Source of the DNA: a virus
Strand: one strand, 5' to 3'
Virus record (IMG/VR): IMGVR_UViG_3300047318_000076
Location: 1-39,197 of that record
DNA: 39,197 bases
This document shows, piece after piece, positions 28,002 through 30,283 of this stretch. The notes below the pieces were generated by a model. That model searched no databases and was not told where the DNA came from. It saw only the letters and a list, made by a program, of their open reading frames with translations. Each line of letters opens with the position of its first letter. Position 1 is the stretch's first letter. Both the position numbers and the translations under genes were made by a program.

Positions 28002-28193
28002 TTAGCATCCTACCTTTGCTCTTTGGGTAGCACCTACACAGTAATTAGCTTCTAACTGGCTCTGCATTCTTAACAACATATTATAGGCAGCAGCCTTACT
28101 CTGTTCCTGTAATCGCATTCTCAATTTGCTGGATTCCTCCACCACCTGATCCACTTGTAACTTCTGTGTTTGCTGTATAGTTCTTGAGTTCAT
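28002..28193 (-). CDS. Small 63-aa frame between terS and terL
   Basis: This frame overlaps the end of terS by 98 bases and ends (TAA) one base before terL. It is glutamine-rich and helical (QLQ, EESSKLRMRLQEQSKAAA), possibly a coiled coil. GGATT before ATG 28193 is a fair ribosome site. If the overlap is not real, an internal ATG at 28079 would give a 25-aa peptide after the terS stop. The exact abutment to terL favours a translated frame. Confidence 0.5.
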   Translation of the reverse strand: MNSRTIQQTQKLQVDQVVEESSKLRMRLQEQSKAAAYNMLLRMQSQLEANYCVGATQRAKVGC

Positions 28194-28761
28194 TGTGTAA
28201 TCCTAATCCTAGTTTTGACATTTCGGCTTGTTTGGCTTTAGCTGCATTCAGAAGCACAGAACCTTGTATGGTCTCTAGTGTCTGTCCACCTGCATGGATT
28301 ACTTGGTTATTGACATTGGTTGTGAATTGCTGTACAATCACTTTAGGCATCAGGAGATTAACTACAGTACTCTGTGCAGTTACATGTTCTGGAGCACTCT
28401 GGCCCCGTCGCTTCATGTTATTTACAGTCTGTAATACTTTCGCTATTTCCATTGGCCTCATCAATAGCGGTATTACTTCTTCTAATTGCGTCGCAAGTTT
28501 CTTCTCCATCCCATCATACTTATCATCCATCTCATTGAACTTCTGGAGATTATGGAATTTAAGTTCCGTAACTTCCGCAGCAAATGAGGCATCTGACATC
28601 CATTGTGATACCATACTCTCAGTAACACCTACTGCTTGGGCTACAACTACTGCTGGTTGCCCGCCACCTAGCAACTGTATTGCCCTCTGTTCCTTCTGAC
28701 TCCGTGCTGATTGTAATTGGCTCATGTAGTGCTCCTGCAAATTTTTGTATATAATTTTCAT
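28096..28761 (-). CDS. terS: Probable terminase small subunit
   Basis: A 221-aa protein that probably recognises phage DNA for packaging. The N-terminal region has a helix-turn-helix at about 35-57 (PAVVVAQAVGVTESMVSQWM). A helical middle follows, including a charged segment (MDDKYDGMEKKLATQLEEV) that may oligomerise, then a glycine-rich tail. It is the first gene of the late operon and directly upstream of terL, the usual place. The start at 28761 is supported by AAGGAGGGG; an internal ATG at residue 13 is less well placed. Confidence 0.75.
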   Translation of the reverse strand: MKIIYKNLQEHYMSQLQSARSQKEQRAIQLLGGGQPAVVVAQAVGVTESMVSQWMSDASFAAEVTELKFHNLQKFNEMDDKYDGMEKKLATQLEEVIPLLMRPMEIAKVLQTVNNMKRRGQSAPEHVTAQSTVVNLLMPKVIVQQFTTNVNNQVIHAGGQTLETIQGSVLLNAAKAKQAEMSKLGLGLHNELKNYTANTEVTSGSGGGGIQQIENAITGTE

Positions 28762-28960
28762 CTTACTGCCCCTCCTTATTACTGTAACCTAGGGATTCAA
28801 TGCACCCAGTACTAATAGCTACTACTGAGTACTTGGAAAGTTTAGAAAATCAAGGATATCTACTTAGGACTACAGCGCGCCATGAAGGTAAAAAGGCTCC
28901 ATCCCCCACGGGTACGATACAATCTAGTACGATTCAATCGCATGCGAGATAGTAGTGATG

Positions 28961-28984
28961 TAGTACAGTAGTACAGTAGTACAG
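28961..28984. repeat. Tandem repeat, 8-bp unit x3
   Basis: Three perfect copies of TAGTACAG in a row, with a partial fourth (TAG). On the minus strand each unit offers TGTACT, a weak -10-like hexamer. It may be a protein-binding array or only slippage-prone DNA. Confidence 0.85.
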
Positions 28985-29028
28985 TAGAGATCAGACATCA
29001 TACAAGCTGGTATTGAATGCGAATCATT

Positions 29029-29103
29029 GCTATTATCATTGCTATTACCATTAGCACTAGCATTCAGATCTGAATGAGAATGATTCGTATTACCATTCGC
29101 ACT
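29029..29103. repeat. Iteron-like direct repeats around a perfect palindrome
   Basis: GCTATTATCATT (29029-29040) is followed directly by GCTATTACCATT (29041-29052), 11 of 12 bases identical. TATTACCATTAGCACT (29043-29058) recurs as TATTACCATTCGCACT (29088-29103), 15 of 16. Between them lies the 16-bp perfect palindrome CATTCAGATCTGAATG (29061-29076). GAATCATT (29021-29028) is inverted as AATGATTC (29079-29086). Possible roles are binding sites for a regulator or a replication initiator. Confidence 0.75.
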
Positions 29104-29153
29104 CAGGGTAATAACCTTACAATCCTTAGGGGTATTCAAATAAATCTCTGATT

Positions 29154-29195
29154 TGTGATCTGCATCACATACTTCTCTAGTAGTTCCTGTATAAT
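29154..29195 (+). promoter_or_regulatory. Class II CRP-type promoter for the rightward early operon
   Basis: TGTGA (29154-29158), six bases, then TCACA (29165-29169) is a perfect pair of CRP half-sites; the 22-bp region matches the E. coli consensus at 16 positions. A perfect -10 box TATAAT lies at 29190-29195, with no good -35 box at the expected place. With a start at A 29203 the CRP site is centred at -41.5, the exact class II position where CRP replaces the -35 contact. The first downstream gene begins at 29327. The sites are seen; dependence on host CRP-cAMP is inferred. Confidence 0.75.
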
Positions 29196-29326
29196 TCTTT
29201 ATATGGACTCAGCACTAACAGGTCTGAAGTTTCAAAGCAGGTAAGTTAGGAGTAACAAGGAATAGGTTAGCAGGAAAAAGTAAGAGTTGCAGCAATCATC
29301 CATCAATCACTAATTAGGAGTTACAA

Positions 29327-29497
29327 ATGGTAGTCACTACAATCACTGGTAAGAACCCGGAAAATAGCCAAGGTAATACTCAGATTGAGCAAGCCCGGAA
29401 GATTGGGAAAAGCTTGGGATATTATACTGCTGGTAGGTATCTTGCAATCAGGGGATGGAGTATTGAAGCTGCATTGTTTGAATTGCTGGGTAAGTAA
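29327..29497 (+). CDS. Small early protein (56 aa)
   Basis: The first gene after the CRP-type promoter. TTAGGAG lies six bases before ATG 29327. The protein ends in a conserved-looking helical stretch (LGYYTAGRYLAIRGWSIEAA) that I recall from other short phage proteins without a known role. First-transcribed small genes are often host-takeover proteins, but nothing here proves it. Confidence 0.68.
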   Translation: MVVTTITGKNPENSQGNTQIEQARKIGKSLGYYTAGRYLAIRGWSIEAALFELLGK

Positions 29498-29517
29498 CAG
29501 GATAGTACTGTGCAAGG

Positions 29518-29540
29518 TATAGATTCTTTGGGAGTCTATA
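29518..29540 (+). other. Hairpin in the leader of the 225-aa gene
   Basis: TATAGA (29518-29523) pairs with TCTATA (29535-29540). The arms extend inward with TC/GA and the hairpin shares AGATTCT and TTGGGAGTCT with the hairpin at 30302-30334. There is no T tract, so it is not a simple terminator. Confidence 0.5.
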
Positions 29541-29605
29541 TCTGGCGCTACTGCCAAGTGAGTAAGACCAAGTTTTATAACCTAGACCAAATTGGAGAAT
29601 ATATT

Positions 29606-30283
29606 ATGTCCGTCATTGATACCCTGAACCATTCCGTAGTTACCTATGACCCTAAGAGCACCAAAGCTTTCACAGGGCAAAGGCTTTCCAAGGTTACATA
29701 CAAGACTGTAACTGATAAGGAATCGCCGCTTTGTGGGATCAAGCGGGAAAGCAAGTGTGTATCTCTGCCATTGGTGGAAGTTGCAGAGGTAGTTGCTAAT
29801 GTGGTGGCATTGGCTCCTGTGATGGTGGAGTACTTGCAGACTGTGCAAGATAAGATTGTGCGTGAATTGGTTGATGCTGGAAATGCCTCAATCAGTATGG
29901 AATCAATCTCAATCGCTGCATGTGTTGAATGGTTGGAATCCAACAATGAATCTGGGCGATTGACTAAGGAATCCATTGGTCAGTGGTTTGACTCAGAGAT
30001 TGCAGAGTCACTGGCAATGGTATTGGCTGATAAGTTGGGAGTATCGGCGACTCCTACTGATGCGGAATCTGCACAGGTATTGAAAGTACTAGGAAGTTTC
30101 AAAGATAAGGTAAGTGGACTTGCAGGAGGTAAGACAAGTTATGAGCCGAAATTGTGTACGAGTCTTCTCAAATGCTTGGAACTCGCTCCAGCTGGGGATG
30201 TGTTGGCAGCACGGTTTAGTGCGCGGCTGAATAAGATGATTGAACAGAATTCAAGTGCAATTGAGATGCTTGATCTGCTGTAA
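29606..30283 (+). CDS. Hypothetical early protein (225 aa)
   Basis: The frame is open from 29510, but ATG 29606 has GGAG at correct spacing and gives a sensible N-terminus (MSVIDTLNHSVVTYDPKSTK). The protein is acidic and largely helical after residue 55. It opens with a short region rich in K, T and Y that could be beta. I have an impression of similar early proteins in other phages but no name or function. Two hairpins of related sequence flank it, one upstream and one downstream. Confidence 0.68.
   Translation: MSVIDTLNHSVVTYDPKSTKAFTGQRLSKVTYKTVTDKESPLCGIKRESKCVSLPLVEVAEVVANVVALAPVMVEYLQTVQDKIVRELVDAGNASISMESISIAACVEWLESNNESGRLTKESIGQWFDSEIAESLAMVLADKLGVSATPTDAESAQVLKVLGSFKDKVSGLAGGKTSYEPKLCTSLLKCLELAPAGDVLAARFSARLNKMIEQNSSAIEMLDLL

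Follow-up and report, generated by a model that had tools for sequence, protein, structure and literature searches.

What fires the early genes of this phage, and does the host have a say in it? The locus belongs to IMG/VR record IMGVR_UViG_3300047318_000076, which we analyzed complete, at 39,197 bp; we refer to this whole stretch as the window. The leftward genes, from 28761 down to about 3216, include those for packaging and structure (small and large terminase subunits, portal, major capsid), and the genes pointing rightward extend from 29327 to the record end, and on through 3165 if the record is circularly permuted. The rightward block encodes a Dda/RecD-like helicase, a primase/helicase, an exonuclease and many small proteins without known function. 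A divergent control region of 565 bp (28761-29327) separates the terminase from the rightward early operon, and it holds a palindrome resembling a CRP site just upstream of a TATAAT hexamer.

Because neither an integrase nor a repressor was recognized among the window proteins scanned, the life style of the phage is likely to be lytic, although this is not proven. A search of genome contigs for relatives returned two MAG contigs only, one of them binned with an Anaerolineae MAG; both are probably phage contigs that were binned with MAGs. At the DNA level, the control region found no match in phage and E. coli collections. The conserved early protein of 225 aa that is encoded near the start of the operon gave a predicted structure with a pTM of 0.45.

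A CRP-like palindrome and its -10 element

The initial annotation had described perfect half-sites six bases apart, followed by a perfect -10 element that lacks a good -35 box, at the head of the rightward operon, and all of this held. TGTGA (29154-29158) and TCACA (29165-29169) flank the spacer TCTGCA, and the exact pattern TGTGAN6TCACA occurs only once in the whole window. Using an approximate CRP matrix, which applies our own weights to the E. coli consensus, the 22-mer scored as a near-consensus site, at 18.7 bits compared with a maximum of 15.3 in 1120 shuffled control regions. The TATAAT was read directly, and the best hexamer at spacers of 15-19 bases matches only two of the six positions of TTGACA; the window therefore shows a good -10 without a functional -35 (at most 2/6), as class II promoters do. 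A TG immediately abuts the -10 element, which is not the TGn spacing of an extended -10. The gene layout places this promoter ahead of the entire rightward early block.

A shuffled window would contain about 0.05 exact TGTGAN6TCACA sites, and the 565-bp intergenic region 0.0006; for the site together with TATAAT at the exact distance, the expectation is about 5e-7, on base composition only and before correction for motif choice. The pattern in the DNA is genuine and well exceeds chance expectation. A generic sigma-70 scan of 28600-29700 gave a single 9/12 match, at 29096-29123, a count below the shuffle mean.

The claim that the site lies exactly 41.5 bases before a likely start was not confirmed. 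The palindrome centre is 28.5 bases from the first base of the -10 element, as against 29.5 at E. coli galP1, a spacing that we took from a 61-mer present in 5341 E. coli genomes. A standard 6-base discriminator would centre the site at -40.5, and it reaches -41.5 only if transcription starts at A29203, so the exact spacing is uncertain by one base. The difference matters because CRP at -40.5 behaves erratically in E. coli, where it causes activation, repression or no effect, depending on the -10 element (PMC6301791).

Table 1. Positions of promoter elements, neighbouring genes and other control-region features in the window
Feature	Position	Strand	Remarks
Small terminase subunit, divergent neighbour	28096..28761	-	PHROG terminase small subunit, E 4.6e-4
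Conserved block GAAAGTTTAG...AAAAAGGCTCCATCCCCC, probably cos (genome ends)	28836..28907	+	Kept in most close relatives
Fur-box-like core GAATGCGAATCATT	29015..29028	+	Family motif match
Fur-box-like GAATGAGAATGATTCGTATT	29072..29091	+	Family motif; core GAGAATGATTCGTATT identical in L084, L087
CRP-like site ATTTGTGATCTGCATCACATAC	29151..29172	+	Core TGTGATCTGCATCACA at 29154-29169, centre 29161.5; 18.7 bits
-10 element TATAAT	29190..29195	+	Read directly; 20 bases past the palindrome
Likely transcription start	29201..29203 (A29201 to A29203)	+	Inferred from -10 distance and purine preference only
First small early-operon ORF, 56 aa	29327..29497	+	Homologue within the same operon of L003, L004, L072
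Conserved 225-aa early protein, no function assigned	29606..30283	+	In dozens of relatives, a homologue lies divergent to the terminase gene

These features suggest a model in which a sigma-70 promoter at 29151-29203 would fire the rightward early operon, with a dimeric activator sitting where the -35 box would be. Since there is no -35 box, the promoter would depend on that bound dimer. In the window phage, the activator would most likely be host cAMP-bound CRP or Vfr, the Pseudomonas-type homologue of CRP, acting as it does at class II promoters. We regard such an activator-dependent early promoter, driven by host CRP/Vfr in class II style, as an even bet, and host CRP as the most likely single explanation of the site. 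The analysis shows sequence features together with their statistics and distribution; the start site, CRP binding, activation and any dependence of infection on carbon status are what we infer from them. Searches of the window and of six relatives, with controls that matched, gave no DNA-binding domain of CRP or Mor type (the Mor/C family, PF08765, included), and the lack of such a regulator in the phage favours a host factor. Moreover, the activator that best suits a promoter obliged to act first is a host protein.

The promoter in relatives and in other viral DNA

We collected relatives through the large terminase (47 viral loci), the 225-aa early protein (9 loci) and an alignment of that early protein (56 loci); removal of near-duplicates left 56 control regions, with the window counted in. 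The initial annotation had proposed looking for the half-sites in close relatives and had counted their absence there as a refutation; this check failed: a significant CRP site was present in none of the 55 relatives' control regions, including those of the nearest, whose early protein is 67-72% identical. Among the compared relatives, the CRP-like site is lineage-specific and confined to the window phage. The class II CRP reading thus survives in part, with its site, its -10 element, the absent -35, the placement over the -35 region and the position at the head of the operon all upheld, whereas the half-sites recur in 0 of 55 relatives and the spacing is ambiguous; conservation of the site would lend support to a class II promoter but does not define one.

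Two relatives whose early protein is 63-65% identical to that of the window, L067 (which shares its contig with L056) and L072, show a palindrome of another sequence. In L067, GTTGTATAAATACAAC lies 20 bases before TATAAT and, in L072, GTTGTATAAAAACAAC lies 20 bases before TAGAAT; both are of the form GTTGT-N6-ACAAC, which is not a CRP sequence, and their distance to the -10 element is identical to that in the window. Because a palindrome of the same size precedes the -10 by 20 bases in both, the dimer site appears to be a kept design, and our reading is that this branch may retain a promoter in which a dimer site stands in for the -35, while the sequence recognized changes. In the 56 regions together we counted five perfect 5-N6-5 palindromes 20 bases from a good -10, two of them probably background, whereas 100 shuffles averaged 0.56 and never exceeded 4. 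Separately, just upstream of the 225-aa early gene, L072 and L066 share a conserved palindrome, TAGAGTAAGTACTCTA, 21 bases before TAGAATATAGT. This element adjoins a hairpin-forming stretch and may represent either an RNA element or a second promoter.

We also searched IMG/VR for TGTGAN6TCACA-Nd-TATAAT, which yielded 42 stretches at d = 20, 41 at d = 21 and 18 at d = 26. Once copies were collapsed and the matches confined to intergenic positions with an ORF within 200 bases, 7, 12 and 0 remained, respectively; viral DNA is thus enriched for class II spacing. Six marker proteins showed no relationship between the window and any d = 20 locus. Some TGTGA-type palindromes are longer and specific to a lineage, such as TGTGAACTGGTTCACA in the unrelated phages L150, L166 and L195, and for that reason such sites should not all be taken as CRP sites. 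Eight unrelated contigs (L145, L124, L122, L155, L195, L171, L197 and L146) have at least two TGTGAN6TCACA sites each, several of them at class II distance to TATAAT; CRP-like or phage-specific regulons are possible there.

The family control region

A frequent order in the family is a cos-like block beside the terminase gene, then one or more Fur-like boxes, then the early promoter. The family version of the block reads GAAAAAGTTTAG ... AAAAAGGYCCATCCCCC. The record of Polaromonas phage Tiera both starts and ends inside the corresponding block, implying that this conserved block, which separates TerS from the Fur-like boxes, is probably the cos site.

The Fur-like core AATGMGAATSATT was found, on either strand, in 22 of the 56 regions and in no shuffles, a null that is optimistic because the core was read off these same sequences. 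Only two core matches occur in the whole window record, both in the control region, and all eight matches to GNATGMGAATSATT in 16 full records likewise fall inside the control region; L091 and L104 are also among the regions with Fur-like sequences. Against the 19-bp E. coli Fur consensus, the best regions (L065, L066, L072 and L106) reach 16-17 of 19. Used alone, this consensus was rejected: it is weak for most relatives, giving 14/19 in the window (P about 0.07), and AATGMGAATSATT is far stronger. Because the Fur-like repeats lie beside the cos-like block, they could instead be sites for a packaging protein or for replication. Positions 29016-29091 of the window contain, besides the Fur-like cores, an array with a 12-base period (ATCATTGCTATT repeats); its minus strand can be read as a low-complexity ORF (NGNSNDNSND), and a replication or packaging iteron array is another possibility.

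A sigma-54-like element, TGGCAYN6TGCW (GG-N10-GC spacing), is oriented toward the early operon in 22 of the 56 regions and the other way in 4, compared with 0.25 in shuffles; seven regions combine it with the Fur-like core. Its carriers include L068 (some 100 bp ahead of the early gene), L073, L080, L088, L091, L104, L105, L108 and L041, and the whole window contains no match. None of the 16 records examined encodes a sigma-54 activator, so a host activator would be needed. In L068, L069 and L073, repeated TGACA-N5-TGTCA palindromes lie upstream of the sigma-54-like element, and they could be sites of a host sigma-54 activator. As for promoters of a phage RNA polymerase, PF00940 gave no match, though neither did its control, and the TGGCAY element of the early region does not recur along the genomes as phage RNA polymerase promoters do. 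Both the Fur-like boxes and the sigma-54-like promoters are candidate elements, named for their likeness in sequence.

We can imagine that the control region of this family is wired to the nutritional regulators of the host (Fur-like iron control, sigma-54 in many lineages, and CRP for carbon here), with the regulator exchanged and the layout kept. Infection could then follow the nutrient state, or phage copies could titrate Fur. We offer this tentatively and hold it more probably wrong than right. Searches of an open-access library turned up no relevant work in which Fur, sigma-54 or CRP acts at an early promoter of a phage. To our knowledge, the early promoters of well-studied virulent phages are strong and require no host activator. 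If the first promoter of a phage of lytic type needs CRP, its infection is conditional on the carbon status of the host and, if the wider Fur-like and sigma-54-like pattern is true, nutrient sensing is a family trait rather than a curiosity.

Alternative readings and known systems

The main rival to the CRP reading is that a different dimeric activator, from phage or host, binds the palindrome; its recognition sequence would drift by lineage, and the CRP match would be coincidental. The GTTGT-N6-ACAAC palindromes at the identical spot in two relatives make this a real alternative, and the longer palindromes of the three unrelated phages point the same way. There is also a precedent: in the Mu middle promoter Pm, a 16-bp element built from two 5-bp inverted repeats replaces the -35 and is bound by Mor (PMC4390567). 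On the other hand, the domain searches described above recovered no Mor-type or CRP-type candidate, and no Pfam family was recognized in 20 small rightward proteins of the window phage. An activator made by the phage would come too late for a promoter that acts first, unless this is a middle promoter, and the window site fits CRP far beyond chance. On balance, we consider another activator unlikely.

It seems more improbable that bound CRP would act as a repressor, or could modulate either way, at a site effectively at -40.5 whose -10 is already perfect. The distance from centre to -10, one base shorter than at galP1, and the mixed effects of CRP at -40.5 would allow this, but the missing -35 suggests low activity without help, and the TG that abuts the -10 does not supply an extended -10. 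The least probable reading is that the match has no function, being a chance or relic palindrome beside a weak or constitutive promoter. Although its absence from all 55 relatives speaks for this reading, the chance expectations for the site and for its exact placement are very low, and the sparse return of the generic sigma-70 scan also argues against it. Host CRP thus stays our preferred explanation.

Among known systems, the nearest named relatives by terminase (31-37% aa) are Aeromonas phage P5, Pseudomonas phages PaMx41 (Jamesmcgillvirus), PaP2 and 119X, and Polaromonas phage Tiera. The divergent layout and cos-like block of PaMx41 and P5 resemble those of the window; no CRP-like site was seen by eye in their corresponding regions, and PaMx41, P5 and Tiera are too distant to share the window promoter. 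Closer at hand, the early regions of L068, L073, L091, L104 and L108 occupy the same place as that of the window, with a cos-like block on one side and the early operon on the other, and Fur-like boxes are frequent in them, but they have TGGCAYN6TGCW in place of the TATAAT and palindrome. Mu Pm resembles the window, L067 and L072 in its 16-bp element with two 5-bp repeats standing in for the -35, which in these three lies 20 bases from the -10. It differs in that its element is centred at -43.5 and is not CRP-like in sequence, and in that Mor is encoded by the phage. From galP1-type class II promoters the window differs in serving a phage early operon, in its shorter spacing and in a CRP dependence that is putative. 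Even so, it shares with host class II CRP promoters (galP1, CC(-41.5)) the TGTGA-N6-TCACA over the -35 region, a good -10 and no -35.
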